Source: Acidobacteriota bacterium (GTDB taxonomy: Bacteria; Acidobacteriota; Blastocatellia; Pyrinomonadales; Pyrinomonadaceae). From it: a stretch of 11,312 bases of DNA. Shown here one piece after another: positions 1,181 through 10,442 of the stretch; within the stretch, counting starts at the first letter, position 1; every line of letters starts with the position of its first letter. The DNA is taken from assembly GCA_019247865.1 (NCBI GenBank), contig JAFBAJ010000677.1, positions 1-11,312 of the forward strand. The letters are read 5' to 3'. Both the position numbers and the translations under genes were made by a program. Below the pieces are notes generated by a model that searched no databases, was not told the origin of the DNA, and was given only the letters and a program-made list of their open reading frames with translations.

Positions 1181-2368
1181 TTACGGGGTCGTCGTGGTCG
1201 TGTCCGGCGTCGGCTGCGAAGTCTGCGAGCCGTCGTTGCGTTTGAGCTTCGGCGGGTCGGCGGGCTTCGACTCGGACGGCGTCGCGGCCGGGTCGTCCGT
1301 CGGCGCTTGTCGTCGCTTGAGCGTCGGACGGTCTGGCGCGCCGTTATCATCATCGCTGGAGATGTCTCCGGCCGTCGAGATGCGCGCGTTCGAGAGCCGC
1401 ATCAGGCGCGACTTGACGCGCTGGAATTCCGAAGTGCTGATGACGTATTCCTCTCGCTCCGGGAAACGCGCTACCAGTTCGAGCGAAGCCTGACGGCGAT
1501 CCGGCGGCTGCGGGTGCGTGGAGAATGCCTTCGAGATCATGCCGGGCTTCTTCTTGCTCTTGGACGAAAGCTTTTCAAACATCGTCGCCATCGCGTTCGG
1601 GTCGTACCCGGCGGCGTAGAGATACTGCACGCCGAGCCGGTCGGCCTCGGATTCCGCGTTCCGGCTGAACTTCATAAAGGCCGCCAGCAGGCCGAGCCCG
1701 GCCGTGTTCTGGAAGATCATTCCCGGAATGCCGCCGAGGAAGATCGAGCCCGCGAGCGCGCCCAGTTGCAGCGCGTTGGCCTTGGCCTGATTCTCCATCG
1801 CGTGGCGCGCGGCGACGTGCGCGATCTCGTGCGCCATCACTCCAGCCAGCTCCGCCTCGTTGTCGGCCGCGAGAATGAGCCCGCGATTGACGTAGAAGAA
1901 ACCGCCCGGCAGCGCGAACGCGTTGACCTCGTCCGTGTCCACGACGCGGATCGTGAAAGGAATCTTGGCATCCGAGTGGAGGACGATATTCTGGCCGACG
2001 CGGTTGACGTATTCGGTCACGACCGGATCGTCGACGAACTTGACCTGCTTATCAATTTCGGCTGCGATGGCGCGACCCTGCTTGATCTCGCTATCGGTGC
2101 CTCCGGCGAGCTTGGCGAAGAGGCCGCTGTTGATCTTGCGCTTGCCGATCATGGCCGGGTCTTCGTCCGTGCTGAGCGGCTTTTTGCTGGTCTGGACCGG
2201 CTGCGCCTTAGTCTCCTGTTTCTTGTCCTGAGCCTCTTTCTTCTGTTCGGACTTCTGCGGGGCGCTCTGTTGCGGCGCGGGCTGCTGTGCGGCGGCGGCG
2301 ATGGCGCTCAGCCACAGCGAGCCGGCGAGCGCGAGGGCGGTGGCGTTACGAGTGAAGCGACTACTCAT
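1181..2368 (-). CDS. Exported M48-family zinc metalloprotease (BepA/LoiP-like)
   Basis: This is probably a periplasmic or envelope-associated zinc protease of family M48. The start at 2368 is preferred over an upstream in-frame ATG at 2419 because TTTTGGAGG sits just before it and the protein then opens with a clean signal peptide (MSSRFTR, hydrophobic LALAGSLWLSAIAAAA, cleavage near residue 27). It encodes 395 residues. A Gln/Lys-rich linker (about 28-65) leads to the catalytic domain, with HEIAH at 180-184 (zinc ligands and catalytic Glu), the EXXXD motif ESEAD at 239-243 (third ligand), and the conserved STHPQPPDRR near 283-292. From about 335 to the end the chain is low-complexity, rich in Asp, Pro, Lys and Thr, and ends in a threonine run. 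No TPR region like that of E. coli BepA is evident. Likely substrates are misfolded envelope proteins, by family analogy. It has its own terminator, and no operon partner is visible. Confidence 0.93.
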   Translation of the reverse strand: MSSRFTRNATALALAGSLWLSAIAAAAQQPAPQQSAPQKSEQKKEAQDKKQETKAQPVQTSKKPLSTDEDPAMIGKRKINSGLFAKLAGGTDSEIKQGRAIAAEIDKQVKFVDDPVVTEYVNRVGQNIVLHSDAKIPFTIRVVDTDEVNAFALPGGFFYVNRGLILAADNEAELAGVMAHEIAHVAARHAMENQAKANALQLGALAGSIFLGGIPGMIFQNTAGLGLLAAFMKFSRNAESEADRLGVQYLYAAGYDPNAMATMFEKLSSKSKKKPGMISKAFSTHPQPPDRRQASLELVARFPEREEYVISTSEFQRVKSRLMRLSNARISTAGDISSDDDNGAPDRPTLKRRQAPTDDPAATPSESKPADPPKLKRNDGSQTSQPTPDTTTTTP

Positions 2369-2737
2369 GGCGAATGCCTCCAAAAAGCTTTTGCGAACCG
2401 TTAAGATTTTAAGTTTCAAGTGTAAGGGGTATCGGCGCGCCGCTCGCTCTTCAGGAAACCGGGCTCAGATCTCAAGGACTGCTTACTTGCACGCCAGCCT
2501 GACTTGGATGCAGGGCTCTCGTCGCAGGTTGCGCCGACCGCCTCCGGCCTCCAATGGCCTTTTCCGTTCCTCTGCCGACTGATCGATAAGGGGGCTCTCT
2601 TCTGAGCACGCATTATAGCAGCATGAGGGCACAAATGATAGATATTGCGCCGCGCGCGGCCCGCGTGCTACAGTCAAAATCGGACGAGCCTCGTAGCTCA
2701 GCCGCCCCCTCCCACAACTTTTTTTTCAGATGCCCGG
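2369..2737. other. Divergent gene-free region (369 bases)
   Basis: No convincing ORF, tRNA or known structured RNA is visible here; the short ORFs are unlike each other and unlike any family I know. It lies between the leftward metalloprotease and the rightward large ATPase-like gene. Two divergent promoter-like elements lie about 55 bases apart: a leftward extended -10 at 2612-2620, and a weak rightward pair TTGCGC (2645-2650)/TACAGT (2669-2674, preceded by TGC) with an 18-base spacer. An eight-T run at 2719-2726 lies close to the rightward start. Short self-complementary stretches occur around 2520-2565 on the leftward strand (for example GGCC-N6-GGCC), so a structured leader is possible but unproven. 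Confidence 0.5.
2612..2620 (-). promoter_or_regulatory. Extended -10 promoter element (TGCTATAAT), leftward
   Basis: Read leftward the bases give TGC followed by a perfect TATAAT, the extended -10 form that can work without a good -35; the -35 position (TATCAT) is indeed poor. Initiation near 2605 would give either a leader of about 237 bases in front of the M48 protease or an independent small RNA. Not confirmed by any visible -35. Confidence 0.45.
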
Positions 2738-5700
2738 ATGAAACGCGCTCAGGATAAGATCAAGGACTTTATTGAGCCGCAGGCCTTCGAGGAAGTCCAG
2801 AATTATGGAGCAGACCCGGCGCGCGCGCTGGCCGCATACCATTTTACGGACGCCACCTCGGACCTGATCGCACGCTGGCTCGACGCGCTTGCGGACCTGC
2901 CGCGCCATCGCGGAGCGGCGCGTGCGCTGGCGGGCTTGCGCGGCGTCGGTAAGAGCCATGCTTTAGCGGCCTTTGGGGCGCTGGTCGCGTTGCCGGATCT
3001 GCGCTCGACGGTTGCGGACGCGCACGTTGCGACGAGCGCCCGCCGCCTGCTCAATCGCCGGTACGTCGTCGTGCGCGTCGAGAGGGGCACGCGCCCTTCC
3101 CTGATCGATGAGTTGCGCGACGCGATGGTCGCCAGCTTCGGCGGCCACGAGTCGGAGTGGATGCAGGATCCCGCGGCGATACTCGCCGTCGCGGCCTCGC
3201 GCGCCGTGGACGTGCCGCTCGTCGTCATCATCGATACCTCTTTCGGTCGCCAGATGCGCGTCCAGCGTGACGACGGCCCCATCCTGAGCGCGCTGGCCGC
3301 CGCCACCTCGGAGGTCAACGTCTTTATCGCGCTCGCGCTGGACGACGACATAGAGGGCGCGGACGGCGCGAACGTCGCGCTCGCCGGCTCGTTCCAGATA
3401 GATTATTTAGACCCCGAACATCTCTATCGCGTCGCAGACCTGCATCTCTTTCAGAAGGACGCGCACGGTCGCGCGGCGCTGCACGACCTCTACACTTTCC
3501 TGCGCAAGTCCGTCCCCGCTTTTAACTGGAGCGAGCCGCGTTTTGCAGCCATCTATCCGGTGCATCCGCTGGTCGCGGATGTCACGCCGGCGGTGCGTCT
3601 CTACGCTCCGACCTTCGCCTTTCTGCCGTTTGCCGCGACGGCTGCCGCGCGCGCGACCAATCGTCCGGCGCTCTCGCTGATCGGTCTGGATGAAGTCTTC
3701 GACCGGGCGGAATACGAGCTGCGCAAGGCTGAGGATTTAAAGGAGGCGGCGGCGGTCTATGACGGTCTGGCGACGAACGCCATCGCGCAGGTTCCGATCA
3801 TGCAGCGCCTGCAGGCCAAGCTCGTGCTCAAGGGGCTCTTTATTCTCTCGCTCGACGGGCGCGGCGCGACGGCGCGCGAGCTGGCGGCGGGGCTCCTGCT
3901 CTACGACGAGAAGACGCCGGAGGCGGCCGTCGAGCGCGTGCGCGAGATGCTCCAGCGGTTCGCCGAAGCCGCGCCGGCCGACGCGCTCGGCCAGATCGAA
4001 GACGTGGGCGAGATCCGCTATCGCTTCGACATCAAGGCTTCGGCCGGATTCGACGCTTCGCTCGCCGCAGCCTCAAAGGCTGTGGATGACGAAGCGACGA
4101 ACGACCTGCTGCGCGTCATCCCGCGCGCGCGTTTCGAGGACTGGCCGTTTACGGACACGGGCGGCGGCGCGCGCGGAGCCGAAGACGCGGAGCTGCTGCT
4201 GATGTGGCGCGGCATGGCGCGGCGCGGTCGCCTCGTCTGGCAGGCGCTCGAAGAGGGATACGCGCCGCTCTCGATGCGCACGCAGTCGGCGCGGGACATG
4301 GACGCGAACGATTGGGAGATCGTGATGCTCGCGCCGCGCCTCGCCGCGGATGATCTTGCGTCGGCTGATGAAGCGCCGACGGAGAACGGCAACGGCGCCT
4401 GGTCTCCGTTCGCGGTCTGGTCTCCGGCCGCGCTGACGGCCGAAGAGAAAGAGGCTCTGCATCGTCTCTACGTCCTGCGCACGAACACGGCGCTGATGCT
4501 GGAGTTCGGCGAGACGGCGCGCGTCGCAGAGCGCACGCACACGGCGCTCATCGAACGCATCTGGACGCGCATCTACATGGACGACGGCCTGCTCGTCACG
4601 GGCGACATCCGTCACCGCTTCACGGACGAAGCGCGCGCGGCCCAGACCCTCGCGGAGACGCTGGGGCGCATGTTCTCTGAGATGTTCGCCGCGCGCTACC
4701 CTGAGCATCCTGTCTTCACAGAGCCGCTCGGCGAAACTGAAGTCACGCGTTTGGTGAGCGGCCTCTTCGGCGGTGCCAATCAGGGCTCCGCCAGCGTGCA
4801 GGAGCTGGCGCGGCTCTTCGCCGCACCGCTCGGCCTCGTCTCGCAGCGCGGCGAAGTCTATGCGCTCGAAGCGGGCGATCAGATTTTGAATCGCGCGTGG
4901 GTGCGCGACGTGCTCGCCCTGACGGACAAGGCGGACGGCGAGGTCGTGCCGCTCGAAGAGATTCATCACAAGCTGCGTGGCGAGCCGTACGGGCTGCTCG
5001 GCGAAGCGCAGCGCTTGATCTTAGCCGCGCTGGTCGCGCAGCGACGGATAGAGCTTGTGACCGACAGCGGCGACCGCATCGGGCGGCGCACGCTCGACCT
5101 CAAGCTGCGTTGGGACGAGATCGCGGGCATCGCGCGCGCGGCCACGCTGCTGCACGGCGCGGAAGAGCTGACCGAGTGGGCGCGGCGGCTGACCTATCAA
5201 CCGGACCTCAGCTCGATTGCAGAGCCTGCGGCGCGAGAGAGCGTGCGCGCGGCTCTCGCCGAATGGCTCGAAGCCTGGCGCGAGAAACGTCTGCTGGAGA
5301 ATTTCGACGCGCTCTCGGACGCAGGGCTCACGACGCGGACCTGGAAGCTGGCGGCGGGCGTGCGCAAGAGCTTCGGCGCGGCGGCCGATGCGGTCGAGGC
5401 CGCGCTGGCCGACATCATCTCGCTCGAAGAGGGCTTGCAGCGTGTGGCCGACGCCTTCGGCGATGCGCCCGAACAGTTCGCGCGCAACACGGAACAGCTC
5501 GCGCAGCTCACCAACTTCATCGCCGGGCTCTCGGCCAGAGAACACGTGCGCGAATATCTGGCGATGGCCGAGCCGACGACCGTGGACGAGATCGAGAGCG
5601 CGCGGCGCGAGCTGCTGACGCTGATCGAAGAGACGCAGAGCCTCTTCGAGCGCGAGTCCAATCGCCGGTTCGATATTTTGTGGCGCGAGTTTCATGCGCG

Positions 5701-6373
5701 TTACAGCGAGCACTACGCGACGATGCATGCCGAAGTGGTCGGCGCGAACTCCAACCGTCGCGCGCTCGACACTCTGACGCGCGGCGCGGAGTGGCGCGAG
5801 TTCGAGGCTCTGGCAGAGCTTTCGATCATCAACCGGCAGCACTGGGAGCAGGCCGTCGAAGTGTTGACCGAGGCGCGCCGCTCTTTCTGCGACCTCAACG
5901 TGCGGCAGCTCCTGACCGAGCGCGCGGCCTGCGTCTGCGCTTTCCGCCTCGCGCGCGCGGGCAGCGTCGCAGGTCTGCCGCAGGAGCTACAGCAACTCCT
6001 GGAGCACGGCCGTCACGCCTATCATCACACGCTCTCATTGATGAGCACGCCGCTCGCGATCGCGCTCGACGCCATCGCGCGCAAGGAGGAGGACGCGGAC
6101 GTTGCGGCGCGCGCGCGCACGCTGTCCGGAGCCTTCGCGCGCGGCACGGAGCACACGTATTTCACGCGCGCCGACGTGCAGCTCATCGAGCAGGCACTGC
6201 AACGCATGGCGACGCCGCCGCCCGTGCGCGTCGAGCTGCCGGTGGGCGAATACGGTTTGCTCACGCGCGACGAGCTGCGGGCGCGCCTCAATCAATGGCT
6301 CGACGACCTGCCGGATCATCCGGCGCTCGTCGAGGTCGTCGGTGAAAGCGACGGTGATGGCGCGCAGGGCTGA
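2738..6373 (+). CDS. Large P-loop NTPase resembling BREX/Pgl ATPases (BrxC/PglY, DUF6079-like), orphan
   Basis: The 1211-residue product has Walker A GLRGVGKS at 66-73. The expected Walker B strand 'VPLVVIIDTS' is near 159-168, where the usual Asp-Glu reads Asp-Thr. The stretch 'DYLDPEHLYRVADLHLFQK' (about 222-240) and 'RFAAIYPVHPLV' (about 268-279) follow the plan of large phage-resistance ATPases. Later segments also fit: 'KGLFILSLDGRGATARELAAGLLLYD' (about 365-390), 'ARYPEHPVF' (about 652-660), 'GEPYGLLGEAQRLILAALVAQRRIEL' (about 748-773, winged-helix-like) and a C-terminal CVC (Cys1065, Cys1067). In BREX/Pgl, such ATPases act with a methyltransferase and a phosphatase; none is encoded nearby. 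The family assignment is from memory of motif patterns and is moderate in confidence; the gene itself is certain. ATG 2738 is chosen because 'MKRAQDKIKDFIEP' looks like a true N-terminus; no Shine-Dalgarno is visible, only a T run. The DUF2520 gene overlaps its 3' end. An uncharacterised housekeeping NTPase is the alternative. Confidence 0.6.
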   Translation: MKRAQDKIKDFIEPQAFEEVQNYGADPARALAAYHFTDATSDLIARWLDALADLPRHRGAARALAGLRGVGKSHALAAFGALVALPDLRSTVADAHVATSARRLLNRRYVVVRVERGTRPSLIDELRDAMVASFGGHESEWMQDPAAILAVAASRAVDVPLVVIIDTSFGRQMRVQRDDGPILSALAAATSEVNVFIALALDDDIEGADGANVALAGSFQIDYLDPEHLYRVADLHLFQKDAHGRAALHDLYTFLRKSVPAFNWSEPRFAAIYPVHPLVADVTPAVRLYAPTFAFLPFAATAAARATNRPALSLIGLDEVFDRAEYELRKAEDLKEAAAVYDGLATNAIAQVPIMQRLQAKLVLKGLFILSLDGRGATARELAAGLLLYDEKTPEAAVERVREMLQRFAEAAPADALGQIEDVGEIRYRFDIKASAGFDASLAAASKAVDDEATNDLLRVIPRARFEDWPFTDTGGGARGAEDAELLLMWRGMARRGRLVWQALEEGYAPLSMRTQSARDMDANDWEIVMLAPRLAADDLASADEAPTENGNGAWSPFAVWSPAALTAEEKEALHRLYVLRTNTALMLEFGETARVAERTHTALIERIWTRIYMDDGLLVTGDIRHRFTDEARAAQTLAETLGRMFSEMFAARYPEHPVFTEPLGETEVTRLVSGLFGGANQGSASVQELARLFAAPLGLVSQRGEVYALEAGDQILNRAWVRDVLALTDKADGEVVPLEEIHHKLRGEPYGLLGEAQRLILAALVAQRRIELVTDSGDRIGRRTLDLKLRWDEIAGIARAATLLHGAEELTEWARRLTYQPDLSSIAEPAARESVRAALAEWLEAWREKRLLENFDALSDAGLTTRTWKLAAGVRKSFGAAADAVEAALADIISLEEGLQRVADAFGDAPEQFARNTEQLAQLTNFIAGLSAREHVREYLAMAEPTTVDEIESARRELLTLIEETQSLFERESNRRFDILWREFHARYSEHYATMHAEVVGANSNRRALDTLTRGAEWREFEALAELSIINRQHWEQAVEVLTEARRSFCDLNVRQLLTERAACVCAFRLARAGSVAGLPQELQQLLEHGRHAYHHTLSLMSTPLAIALDAIARKEEDADVAARARTLSGAFARGTEHTYFTRADVQLIEQALQRMATPPPVRVELPVGEYGLLTRDELRARLNQWLDDLPDHPALVEVVGESDGDGAQG

Positions 6374-7289
6374 CCGACCGGGCGCGCTGAGCCTTTCCAT
6401 CATCGGGGCCGGGCGTCTCGGCTCGGCGCTGGCGCTGGCGCTCTCCGCTAAAGGGTTTGAGATTCGTGCCATCGTCTCGCGCCGCATCAGTCATGCCCGG
6501 CGTGCTGCTCGTCTGCTCGAAGCAGACACAGAAGCCCTCTCACTCGCGCAGCTTTCACATCTCAAGCCGTCCATCAAGCCGTCCAGTCTCATTTTCATCA
6601 CGACGCCGGACGATGCGATTGAAGCGACGGCGGCACGGCTCGCGGCCAGTTTGGGTTGGAGCGGTGGCGTCGCGCTGCACGCGAGCGGCGCGCTCTCGTC
6701 AGAGGTTCTGCGCGCCCTGCGCGAGAAGGGGTTTCAGACGGGCTCGATGCATCCGCTCATCTCCGTGAGCGACGCGCGCGCGGGCGCAGAGAGCCTGAGC
6801 CGCGCGCACTTCTGCATCGAAGGAGAGCCGCGCGCCGTCAGCTTGGCGCGCAGGCTCGTGCGCGCGCTCGGCGGCCGGAGCTTTTCCATTCGCACGAAAG
6901 ATAAAGCCCTTTATCATGCGGCGGCGGTGATGACCTCCGGCCACACGGTCGCGCTCTTCGACCTCGCCACAGAGCTGCTCGACCATTGCGGTTTATCAAA
7001 GGAGCGTGCGCGCGCGGCCCTGCTGCCGCTGCTGGCGAGCACGCTCGAAAACCTTTCGCGCCACGCGCCCGCACGCGCGCTGACCGGAACCTACGCGCGC
7101 GCAGACCTCTCGACGGTCAACAAACACCTCGCCGCCTTGCATAACGCGCAGACCGGCGAAGCTCTCCAGGCATACGCGCTCCTCGGCCTCCGCTCCGTCG
7201 AGCTGGCGCGCGAGAACGGCGCAGACCCCGCGACGCTCAGGCAAATTGTCGAGATTCTTCAGAAGACGATGAAGAGTAAAAAGTGCTGA
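6357..7289 (+). CDS. Rossmann-like / DUF2520-domain NAD(P)-binding protein
   Basis: The 310-residue product has a dinucleotide-binding fold at the N-terminus (GAGRLG at 17-22 after a hydrophobic strand) and 'LIFITTPDDAI' at 78-88. It also has 'HASGALSS' at 108-115 and 'GSMHPLISVSD' at 129-139. The helical DUF2520 half contains 'YHAAAVMTSGHTVAL' (186-200) and 'ALTGTYARAD' (241-250), the counterpart of the family's LTGPxxRGD-like motif. The family resembles ketopantoate reductase and pyrroline-5-carboxylate reductase folds; its substrate is unknown, so I give no reaction. The start at ATG 6357 (GTG 6354 is an alternative) lies 17 bases inside the end of the upstream large NTPase gene, which implies translational coupling; a partial GGTGA Shine-Dalgarno is at 6341-6345. 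Length is normal for the family. A palindromic repeat just downstream could end transcription. Confidence 0.9.
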   Translation: MARRADRPGALSLSIIGAGRLGSALALALSAKGFEIRAIVSRRISHARRAARLLEADTEALSLAQLSHLKPSIKPSSLIFITTPDDAIEATAARLAASLGWSGGVALHASGALSSEVLRALREKGFQTGSMHPLISVSDARAGAESLSRAHFCIEGEPRAVSLARRLVRALGGRSFSIRTKDKALYHAAAVMTSGHTVALFDLATELLDHCGLSKERARAALLPLLASTLENLSRHAPARALTGTYARADLSTVNKHLAALHNAQTGEALQAYALLGLRSVELARENGADPATLRQIVEILQKTMKSKKC

Positions 7290-7354: not shown

Positions 7355-7756
7355 TTACTCCGCGCGGAAGCTCTTGCTTTCGCTCAGGTCGTCCATCGGG
7401 TTGAACCGGCCGAAGTGCGTGCGGCGGCGAATGCGGCTGAAGACGAAGAGATTGAAGAAGTGCATGCCGCCGAGCACGACGAGGACGAGACCGACTTTCC
7501 ACGAGAGGGCCTCGATGCCTTCGCGCGCGGTTTCCAGATTTTCGCTGAGCTTGAGCGCGAGGCTGACGTAGCCGAAGTTGATCAGATAAAAGCCGACGAC
7601 GAGCAGATGATTGACCGAGTCGGCCAGCGCCTCGTTGCCGTGAAAGACATCCACGAGAAAGATGCGCCCGTTCCTGGACAGGGTTTGAGCCACCCAGATG
7701 GTGAGCGCGATGCTGATGCCGAGATAGGTCAGATACGTGATGACGACTGTGTTCAT
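7355..7756 (-). CDS. Small integral membrane protein with three predicted helices
   Basis: The function is unknown to me. The start at 7756 is set by a near-perfect GGAGG Shine-Dalgarno 7-8 bases upstream, although the frame stays open further back to 7924. The 133-residue product has three clear hydrophobic segments: about 5-25 (ITYLTYLGISIALTIWVAQTL), 48-68 (VNHLLVVGFYLINFGYVSLAL) and 86-106 (WKVGLVLVVLGGMHFFNLFVF). Between the first two is a polar stretch 'SRNGRIFLVDVFHGNEALADSVNH', which looks conserved in character. The C-terminal tail is basic (SRIRRRTHFGRF) and then acidic, which by the positive-inside rule suggests a cytoplasmic C-terminus. It is convergent with the DUF2520 gene and divergent from the S8 protease gene, so it appears to be monocistronic. 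I recall similar short unnamed membrane proteins in other bacteria, but no function. Confidence 0.88.
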   Translation of the reverse strand: MNTVVITYLTYLGISIALTIWVAQTLSRNGRIFLVDVFHGNEALADSVNHLLVVGFYLINFGYVSLALKLSENLETAREGIEALSWKVGLVLVVLGGMHFFNLFVFSRIRRRTHFGRFNPMDDLSESKSFRAE

Positions 7757-8063
7757 GACATCCTCCTTCAAAGCTTTTGATGACGAACCACTGTGACCTT
7801 TATCAATCAACGTGCCAGAAGAGAACCGGCGGAAAAGCAGCTCTCTGCCATCGCAAGCTGCACATACGCACGGCAGTTCTTTGCAATCTGCCAGAGCCGC
7901 GCCCGGCGTTTGACTCTCTATCAAAAGCAGCTTATCTTTCCCCCTGCCCGGTGCTGGAGCCGGGCCAGTCGTTCGTGTGAACCTGCATTTTGTGCCCCTC
8001 CGACATCTCAGTTTCCGCGCCGGTCAAGTGGCGCTTAACTTTTTAAGAGGAATATCTGTAGCT
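7757..8063. other. Divergent gene-free region (307 bases)
   Basis: This lies between the leftward membrane-protein gene and the rightward S8 protease gene. No RNA gene is recognisable. It holds a rightward sigma70-type promoter at 7910-7938 and a six-pair GC hairpin in the resulting leader (GCCCGG 7946-7951 with CCGGGC 7960-7965). A leftward sequence at 7801-7817 resembles a sigma54 site but lacks the -12 GC. The frame of the protease is open back to a GTG at 7977, but that extension lacks a Shine-Dalgarno and would bury the signal peptide. Confidence 0.5.
7910..7938 (+). promoter_or_regulatory. Sigma70-type promoter for the S8 protease gene
   Basis: TTGACT (7910-7915, five of six consensus bases) is followed after exactly 17 bases by TATCTT (7933-7938, four of six). 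Initiation near 7945 would leave a leader of about 119 bases that starts with a GC-rich hairpin, which could affect stability or translation. Confidence 0.55.
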
Positions 8064-10442
8064 ATGAAAACTGCTTTCCGTTCAGCTTGTGTGATGACGG
8101 TCTTAGCGATTGCGATTCTGGCTCTGACGAGCGCGCACGGCTATATGTCGCAACAGGACGCGCGCACGGCTGCGATGAACAAGATTGCCCCCTGGGTCAT
8201 GGAGCGCACGGCTGGCGGCGCACAGGCAGAGTTCCTGGTTGTCCTGAACGATCAGGCTGATCTGAGCCGCGCGTCCGGGCTCAGAAGCAAGGTGGAGAAG
8301 GGCAGCTATGTGCGCAACGCGCTGTGGAACAAGGCGCAGGCGACGCAGGGGCCGATCATCCAGTTGCTCAAGGAGCGCGGCATCGAATATCGCTCCTTCT
8401 ACATCGTCAACATGATCTGGGTGAAGGCGGATCAGAGCGTCGCTCTGGAGCTGGCTTCGCGCTCCGACGTGGCGCGCATCGAAGGCAATCCGGCGGTGCA
8501 GAATAAGCTGCCAGAGCCGACGGCCGCGATCGATACGCCGCAGCGACCGGAGAGCCCGGACGCCATCGAGCCCGGCATCAACTACACGCGCGCGCCAGAG
8601 GTCTGGGCGCAGGGCTTTAACGGACAGGGCATCGTCGTCGGCGGCGCGGACACAGGCTATCGCTGGGATCACAACGCGCTCAAGAACCACTATCGCGGGT
8701 GGAACGGCGCGACGGCCAACCACGACTTTAACTGGCACGACAGCGTCCACACGGGCGGCGGCACCTGCGGAGCCAATTCGGTTGTGCCCTGCGACGACAA
8801 TTTTCACGGCACGCACACGATGGGCACTGCCATCGGAGATGACGGCGCAGGGAACCAGATCGGCATGGCTCCGGGAGCCAAATGGATCGGCTGCCGCAAC
8901 ATGAATCAGGGCGTCGGCACGCCCGCCTCTTATATGGAGTGCTTCGAGTTCTTTCTCGCTCCGTATCCGGTCGGCGGCACGCCCGCGCAGGGCAATCCGG
9001 CGATGGCTCCGGACCTGACGACCAACTCCTGGAGCTGTCCTACCTCGGAAGGCTGCTCGCCCGGAACCTTGCAGGCGGGCGTCGAAGCGCAGCGCGCGGC
9101 CGGCATCATGATGGTCGTCGCGGCGGGCAATTCCGGCTCGGCCTGCTCGACCGTCACCGACCCGCCGGGGATTTACGACGCCTCTTATACGGTCGGCGCA
9201 CTGACCACCGGCACGGACACTCTGGCCTCTTTCAGCAGCCGCGGCCCGGTCACGGTTGACGGCAGCGGTCGTCCCAAGCCGGACATCTCCGCGCCCGGAA
9301 CCAGCACGCGCTCCGCGACCAACAGCAGCATCACAGCCTACACCACAGCGTCCGGCACTTCGATGGCGACGCCGCACGTCGCCGGTTCGATTGCGCTGCT
9401 CTGGTCTGCGCAGCCCGGACTGACCAACAAGATCGCCCAGACGGAAGTCCTGCTTGACAACGCGAGCGTGCATCTCAGCACGGCCAGTTGCAGCAGCACG
9501 ACCGGCATCCTGCCGAACAACCTCTTCGGCTACGGTCGTCTGGACATCCGCTCGGCCGTCGATCAGGCTCTGCGTTACGCCGTCAGGCCGTTCGACCTGG
9601 ACGGCGACGGCAAGACGGACTATGCCATCTACAGACCCAACGGCGACGGCAACGGTAACGGCAAGTGGTTCATCCTCAACGGCGCGAGCGGAACCAACTC
9701 GCAGCAGCTCTTCGGGCTTGCGACGGACGCGCCCGTCCCCGGCGATTACAACGGCGACGGCATCTCCGAGATCGCTGTCTTTCGCGGCTCCGAGGGAGCC
9801 TGGTATATCTCGCAGGGCTCCGCGCAGAGCTTCACGCGCATCCCGTGGGGCGCAGCCGGCGATGTGCCTGTGCCGGGCGATTACGATGGCGACGCGAAGA
9901 CGGATGTCGCGGTCTGGCGTCCCTCGACCGGCACCTGGTATGTGCTGCGCAGCTCTGACGGCGGAGTCATCGCGCAGCCCTTCGGTGCGAGCGGCGACAT
10001 GGTCGTGCCCGGCGATTACGACGGCGACGGCAAGACCGATCTCGCAGTCTTTCGTCCGAGCAATAACGTCTGGTACATCTTCCGCACGACGAACGGCTCG
10101 CTGCTCAGCGTGCAGTGGGGAGTCAGCGGCGACAAGCTCGTGCAGGGCTACTACGATGCCGACAGCAAGCTGGACATAGCCGTCTGGCGACCCTCGAACG
10201 GCACGTGGTACATCCTCCGGAGCACGACCAACAACACCGCTTTCGATTCCATCCAGTGGGGACAGAGCGGCGACATCCCGGCGGCTGGCGATTTCGAAGC
10301 CGACGGCAAGTATGACGTGGGCGTCTTCCGCCCGAGCACAGGGCAGTGGTACGTCCGTCGCTCATCCAACGGCGCGCTCATCGGCACCCCGTGGGGACAG
10401 AGCGGCGACCGGCCAGCGCTCTCCGCTTACGTTCCGCAGTAG
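8064..10442 (+). CDS. Secreted subtilisin-like (S8) serine protease with C-terminal VCBS/FG-GAP-like repeats
   Basis: This is an extracellular subtilase of 792 residues. The start at 8064 gives a standard signal peptide (MKTAFRSACVMTVLAIAILALTSAHG, cleavage near 26), with AGAGG about 13 bases upstream. An I9-like propeptide region follows (about 54-145: 'EFLVVLNDQADLS' to 'SDVARIEGNPAV'). The catalytic triad is visible: Asp196 in GADTGY, His248 in HGTH, and Ser433 in SGTSMATPHVAG; the oxyanion Asn356 sits in AAGNSG. Several cysteines in the catalytic domain (e.g. GGTCGAN, VPCDDN, GCRN, WSCPTSEGC) could form disulfides. From about 508 to the end are six units of about 45-50 residues, each opening with a D-x-D-G-D-like loop followed by 'xxDxAVxRPSxxxWYI', probably a calcium-binding beta-propeller-like module for substrate or surface binding. 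The likely role is degradation of external protein; the target is unknown. A palindromic repeat lies 6 bases past its stop. Confidence 0.95.
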   Translation: MKTAFRSACVMTVLAIAILALTSAHGYMSQQDARTAAMNKIAPWVMERTAGGAQAEFLVVLNDQADLSRASGLRSKVEKGSYVRNALWNKAQATQGPIIQLLKERGIEYRSFYIVNMIWVKADQSVALELASRSDVARIEGNPAVQNKLPEPTAAIDTPQRPESPDAIEPGINYTRAPEVWAQGFNGQGIVVGGADTGYRWDHNALKNHYRGWNGATANHDFNWHDSVHTGGGTCGANSVVPCDDNFHGTHTMGTAIGDDGAGNQIGMAPGAKWIGCRNMNQGVGTPASYMECFEFFLAPYPVGGTPAQGNPAMAPDLTTNSWSCPTSEGCSPGTLQAGVEAQRAAGIMMVVAAGNSGSACSTVTDPPGIYDASYTVGALTTGTDTLASFSSRGPVTVDGSGRPKPDISAPGTSTRSATNSSITAYTTASGTSMATPHVAGSIALLWSAQPGLTNKIAQTEVLLDNASVHLSTASCSSTTGILPNNLFGYGRLDIRSAVDQALRYAVRPFDLDGDGKTDYAIYRPNGDGNGNGKWFILNGASGTNSQQLFGLATDAPVPGDYNGDGISEIAVFRGSEGAWYISQGSAQSFTRIPWGAAGDVPVPGDYDGDAKTDVAVWRPSTGTWYVLRSSDGGVIAQPFGASGDMVVPGDYDGDGKTDLAVFRPSNNVWYIFRTTNGSLLSVQWGVSGDKLVQGYYDADSKLDIAVWRPSNGTWYILRSTTNNTAFDSIQWGQSGDIPAAGDFEADGKYDVGVFRPSTGQWYVRRSSNGALIGTPWGQSGDRPALSAYVPQ

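Follow-up and report, generated by a model that had tools for sequence, protein, structure and literature searches.

We analysed an 11,312-nucleotide stretch of DNA from an Acidobacteriota bacterium (assembly GCA_019247865.1), here called the window, which carries a gene for a giant ATPase resembling the BrxC and PglY proteins of the bacteriophage exclusion (BREX) and phage growth limitation (Pgl) defence systems. The window is the entire contig JAFBAJ010000677.1 of its genome, and wider context was read from the loci of relatives; we take its family, labelled f1, to be Pyrinomonadaceae (class Blastocatellia). The ATPase gene is an open reading frame on the forward strand (2738–6373) that starts with ATG and encodes 1,211 residues, and an upstream TTG at 2645 is an alternative start that would add 31 residues. 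All motifs quoted for the protein in the original prediction were found in the translation. On the forward strand, an AAA+ (ATPases associated with diverse cellular activities) core (residues 1–330; 2738–3727) contains the Walker A sequence GLRGVGKS (residues 66–73; 2933–2956), the Walker B strand VVIIDT (residues 162–167; 3221–3238) and, close to the sensor-1 position, the conserved acidic motif LDDDI (residues 201–205; 3338–3352). Next come a helical lid and first winged helix (residues 331–440; 3728–4057), an alpha+beta domain (residues 441–660; 4058–4717), a further segment (4718–5152) and a long helical C-terminal region (residues 806–1211, modelled to 1200; 5153–6370); the boundaries of the first three parts were drawn by eye from the predicted model. 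The C-terminal region includes a CxC-x-FR motif, whose Cys-x-Cys begins at residue 1065 (5930–5938); a C-(0-2)-C-x-FR form is present in 115 of 120 listed relatives and might bind metal. The gene is flanked by a divergent M48 metalloprotease gene (1181–2419, reverse strand; 110.8 bits in Pfam) and by a dehydrogenase-like DUF2520 gene (6357–7289, forward strand; 116.5 bits), whose start codon (ATG, 6357–6359) gives a 17-nucleotide overlap with the end of the ATPase gene. Scans for promoters, terminators, Rfam families and tRNAs returned nothing notable for the ATPase gene.

The protein is near certain to be a member of the BrxC/PglY (DUF6079) AAA+ superfamily. It scores 43.3 bits against the Pfam profile of DUF6079 (PF19557), above the gathering cut-off of 23; the hmmscan match falls into two stretches, the better at residues 933–1086, and nearly the full length is covered by profile–profile comparison only, in which hhalign with BREX-3-type BrxC gave 99.9% over 1,112 aligned columns in a run without a negative control. 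The two best PADLOC models were PDLC02487 and PDLC02482, the latter taken as type 3 because locus L096 scores 1,819 bits there and plasmid relatives of L096 are annotated as BREX-3. Against the NCBIfam model BREX_BrxC the score was 17.2 bits, below the cut-off of 400. The predicted model has the BrxC fold, with an AAA+ domain like that of the origin recognition complex (ORC) and Cdc6, including Walker A, followed by a winged helix; its later part runs in the order strands, winged helix, long helices, and matched no solved BrxC middle domain. The likeness to BREX and Pgl ATPases noted in the original prediction holds in Pfam, PADLOC, profile–profile and fold comparisons. Sequence identity is about 20% to BREX type 3 BrxC and 14% to Acinetobacter BREX BrxC (PDB 9zll and 9zdx). 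One sequence search of the PDB gave no match; a second gave eight, none significant, including two BrxC chains at E values of 0.068 and 0.17. ORC/Cdc6 initiators matched clearly more weakly than BrxC and over the N-terminal third only. For residues 440–815, Foldseek found no match at E 0.001 and VIA-align chiefly found winged-helix chains covering about the last 100 residues; neither found a matching fold for the alpha+beta part, which is not thereby proven to be new. No effector domain, such as a nuclease or a methyltransferase, was listed within the protein by Pfam, PADLOC or NCBIfam.

The ATP-binding site combines an intact Walker A with an altered Walker B. In a 56-row alignment that included the window, G66, G69, G71 and K72 of Walker A and P274, H276 and P277 of the PVHP motif are invariant, and S73 nearly so. 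Both motifs align with those of BREX-3-type BrxC, which also shares the Walker-B aspartate. The ATPase lacks the catalytic Walker-B glutamate of BREX BrxC and PglY and has Thr167 in its place. Walker A was recognized by pattern in 118 of 120 listed relatives (window included), all 118 of which read Asp-Thr where BREX proteins have Asp-Glu (106 called by pattern and 12 by eye from printed stretches; P0120 has one extra residue before the Asp). LDDDI, absent from the BREX rows, is likewise present in all 118. A survey of 52 locus rows and two short variants gave DT in all 24 rows of f1 and DE in all six BREX rows; elsewhere we read DG in the f3 and f8 orthologues (3/3), DN in f7 and f34, DD in f24 and f40 (3/3), DE in an unassigned f14 row, and DG, DS, DN or DD in paralogues. 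In Acinetobacter BrxC, according to its published description (PMC13326643), the catalytic Walker-B glutamate is E269 and the dimer is stabilized by ATP; the E269Q variant has much lower ATPase activity, dimerizes more with ATP and still binds DNA in an ATP-dependent manner, and DNA binding was not seen for residues 1–551 by themselves. With threonine in place of the catalytic glutamate, the ATPase probably does not work as a motor: by analogy with E269Q, it would hydrolyse ATP slowly or in an altered way and serve as an ATP-binding switch or scaffold.

No BREX partner was found beside the gene. A Pfam scan of seven other genes of the window gave none, in agreement with the flanks described in the original prediction (an M48 protease and DUF2520, with no BREX partner in view). 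The window's genome (3.98 Mb, 74% complete) has the ATPase gene as its sole DUF6079 match and no match to PglZ, the partner to which the genome-wide search was directed. PglZ scored above cut-off in 3 of the 119 family genomes, every time on a contig other than that of the ATPase, and at E 0.001 in 12; the same search gives a match in 2 of 14 control genomes. Among 51 neighbouring proteins from six related loci, PADLOC at E 1e-10 matched no BREX model; its matches were to the TIR and PycTIR models (two members each), probably cyclic-nucleotide-monophosphate-binding channel proteins, and to mad2 (one member). Pfam matched 54 families among these neighbours, and the 25 shown include ribosomal protein S2, elongation factor Ts, ribosome recycling factor, a class-II (A) tRNA synthetase, Fur, malic enzyme, M48 and DUF2520; the neighbours are mostly housekeeping. 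Linkage to PglZ and a BREX methyltransferase was therefore not found (119 family genomes for PglZ; the 51 neighbours of six loci), and the claim that the gene lies outside a BREX island stands as far as its 74%-complete genome and the six loci reach. A BREX system split by assembly was rejected, given the three PglZ genomes and the mostly housekeeping neighbours.

We also rejected a plasmid-borne gene, as the ATPase had no match in 72,556 plasmid records. A BREX-3-type BrxC query of the same set matched seven records, and the two that were opened are annotated BREX-3 loci with brxF, methyltransferase, helicase and PglZ neighbours; none of these lies beside the ATPase, which, unlike BREX type 3 loci, sits at a fixed chromosomal locus. 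The DUF6079 proteins of BREX-Related Capture (HerA/FtsK) systems are likewise BrxC-type proteins outside classical BREX, and their loci carry PglZ and HerA/FtsK, as set out in a 2026 BREX census (PMC12839542); neither was seen beside the ATPase, HerA without a search of its own. That the ATPase is not part of BREX is well supported.

The gene is inherited with the chromosome of its family. It was matched in 86 of the 119 genomes (54 of 69 good genomes; 26 of 29 genera), as a rule in single copy and mostly as long open frames. With adjacency defined as less than 1,500 bp between matches, DUF2520 adjoins it on the same strand in 76 of the 86 carriers and M48 on the opposite strand in 75, making these two genes its conserved neighbours. 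M48 and DUF2520 lie side by side, 184–640 bp apart, in 24 of the 33 non-carriers. Sampled non-carriers of genera g23, g29 and g5 nest among carriers in a 34-row M48 tree (Shimodaira–Hasegawa-like approximate likelihood-ratio test, SH-aLRT, 82, 93 and 97%), so at least three losses are likely. The ATPase tree recovers f1 as a clade of 22 rows and the f2 orthologues as a clade of seven, each with 100% SH-aLRT. Gene order is half kept beyond the family, with ATPase–DUF2520 in f3 (two loci) and f8 (one locus) and M48–ATPase in two f2 genomes. Searches of the class and the phylum matched 102 of 162 and 60 of 396 genomes, respectively, the weaker phylum matches including BREX-type BrxC. A search with a distant alignment found 23 proteins, of which the two with an organism name are from Acidobacteria and Pyrinomonadaceae, and a scan of genome contigs gave only three loci. 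Vertical inheritance is well supported, and the plasmid search, locus, tree and neighbours in the six loci gave no mobile or defence-island setting. Separately, in family f9 (L112, genomes G159–G161) M48 and DUF2520 are divergent and adjacent without the ATPase in three of six printed genomes, and paralogues of 935 to 2,053 residues occur elsewhere in f2, f3 and f8 (L068–L076).

The gene is also under purifying selection. Compared with one genome of the same genus (G026), the ratio of non-synonymous to synonymous substitution rates (dN/dS, NG86) is 0.118 for residues 1–460 and 0.167 for residues 595–1208, alongside 0.240 for DUF2520 and 0.182 for M48. These values (0.12–0.17 for the ATPase) led us to reject neutral decay for the window's genus. 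They also bear on the idea that the gene is a relic of a former BREX-3-like system decaying in place, for which the BREX-3 type of the nearest known systems and the missing Walker-B glutamate could be cited; with ATP-site residues conserved over deep divergence and long open frames in most matches, we regard such a relic as highly improbable. Of the three options raised in the original prediction (solo defence factor, remnant or new NTPase), the decaying remnant is thereby dropped and a vertically inherited, non-BREX NTPase is favoured. Across 44 rows taken as f1, conservation is highest in the AAA+ core (mean majority fraction 0.70; 0.95 or above in 89 columns) and lowest in the alpha+beta part (0.47). 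Seven genomes of genera g17, g25 and g26 (L053, L054, L116–L120) carry versions that match residues 1 to about 445 and from about 808 on; the middle (residues ~445–808), comprising the alpha+beta and winged-helix part, is absent or gives way to a short linker. Their open frames span 824–1,044 residues, or 717 in G104, where the contig ends inside the gene; the copy in G108 is also broken near its start. L119 is also broken near the N-terminus.

The solitary fixed locus, normal inheritance and swapped ATP-cutting residue together suggest a job other than BREX defence. We favour, with middling confidence, a BREX-independent, vertically inherited chromosomal BrxC/PglY-type ATPase of Blastocatellia-type Acidobacteriota, whose probable role would be that of an ATP-binding scaffold or switch. 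With ATP bound at the intact Walker A, neighbouring subunits would join through their N-terminal AAA+ domains; dimers would be held together by the helical C-terminal region, and the middle alpha+beta/winged-helix module would grip double-stranded DNA. The target would most likely be the cell's own chromosome, with a task in nucleoid organization, in segregation or in an assembly linked to replication or stress, rather than in BREX restriction. BrxC is proposed to be an oligomeric scaffold of its complex (PMC12839542), and scaffolds usually need clients; the ATPase could be one subunit of a machine built from several genes, the others being located away from this locus, which we think quite unlikely.

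Several observations weigh against the chromosomal switch. Across the wider solo group the Walker-B change is not universal, as six of the seven f2 orthologues read DD and one reads DE, and LDDDI could provide a substitute catalytic acid, so that hydrolysis may be normal. The short variants should not bind DNA, judging from the BrxC data on residues 1–551, so DNA binding cannot explain the full function in every genome. The locus has exceptions: the M48/DUF2520 pairing is absent in 9 of the 33 non-carriers (six without a listed match of one or both, three with the two on different contigs), 10 of the 86 carriers lack an adjacent DUF2520 (six on other contigs, four without a match) and 11 lack an adjacent M48 (six not listed, three on other contigs, two further away), and the fetched loci of G019 (L043) and G020 (L042) have other downstream genes. 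Both main trees were quick ones. The M48 tree has 12 of 31 inner branches starred and leaves genus g21 unsampled; the ATPase tree (52 rows, without the short variants and two rows that were long or odd) has long branches and an outgroup that does not fall on one side of a branch. A DUF2520 tree resolved poorly. Repeated loss implies that cells can do without the gene, which is also true of defence genes, and the alpha+beta domain evolves fastest, as an arms race would also produce. These last two points lead to the main rival, a core role in solo defence, in which the ATPase would act against phage as a single gene or in trans, would have become fixed in the lineage and would sense invading DNA with its fast-evolving middle domain. 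Its superfamily is known from defence systems, the protein matches PADLOC models, and the least conserved domain is the one assigned to sensing. The absence of an effector domain and of any plasmid match, the fixed locus and family-wise tree, and six loci without defence-island context (only the two TIR/PycTIR proteins and one mad2 among 51 neighbours) speak the other way, and we consider solo defence unlikely, although it is the alternative we take most seriously.

Other lineages place the ATPase beside different genes. Within f2, four of five fetched loci of genus g30 have an LptE gene next after it (cluster c22, one member profiled), and LptE matches also adjoin the ATPase in G119, G122 and G123. 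A bifunctional transglycosylase-transpeptidase (penicillin-binding protein) lies directly upstream in all seven fetched loci of f24 and f34 (cluster c13, one member profiled; two of four f24 carriers were fetched, and five of nine in f34, where matches are mostly partial). Roles in envelope assembly are known for LptE, PBP1b and some M48 proteins. The varied but ordinary neighbours in f2, f24 and f34 again point away from defence islands and make an envelope link possible, in which the ATPase would be a housekeeping accessory of cell-envelope assembly or proteostasis working with M48, LptE, a PBP1b-type synthase or small exported proteins. M48 adjoining the ATPase in f1 and two f2 genomes fits such a link; the neighbour differs between lineages, as chance gene order would give, M48 and LptE are widespread (161 and 113 of 162 genomes), also without the ATPase, and the protein contains winged-helix folds, so that we judge an envelope role distinctly improbable. 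In f24 and f40, the gene immediately downstream of the ATPase encodes a small protein whose start, judged by eye, resembles a signal peptide (L087, 5553–6149, reverse strand; L088, 4149–4757, reverse strand; L089, 9762–10322, forward strand), and the L088 copy has no Pfam match. Elsewhere in the window, a 189-residue open reading frame without a Pfam match (7355–7924, reverse strand) precedes an S8 subtilase fused to FG-GAP repeats (7977–10442, forward strand; Pfam), perhaps a secreted protease.

We found no description of this solo ATPase group in the literature searched, which left out most subscription papers. The 2026 census dropped a small fraction of matches without an assignable subtype and attributed this largely to incomplete neighbourhoods (PMC12839542). 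Our results indicate that DUF6079/BrxC profile matches by themselves do not show a BREX system. BrxC is a central yet poorly understood scaffold of BREX, and a lineage-fixed relative that has no BREX partner, with a changed hydrolysis residue, natural versions lacking the middle and carrier-free genomes offers a clean comparison of what such an ATPase does on its own. More broadly and tentatively, for we think it rather doubtful, the BrxC/PglY superfamily may not be purely a defence family: Acidobacteriota would have retained an ancient ORC/Cdc6-like nucleoprotein switch, ATP-binding and passed on vertically, to organize or license their own chromosome, the BREX scaffolds would be its defence-adapted cousins, and the ATPase-plus-coil would have a role of its own in genera without the DNA-binding middle.

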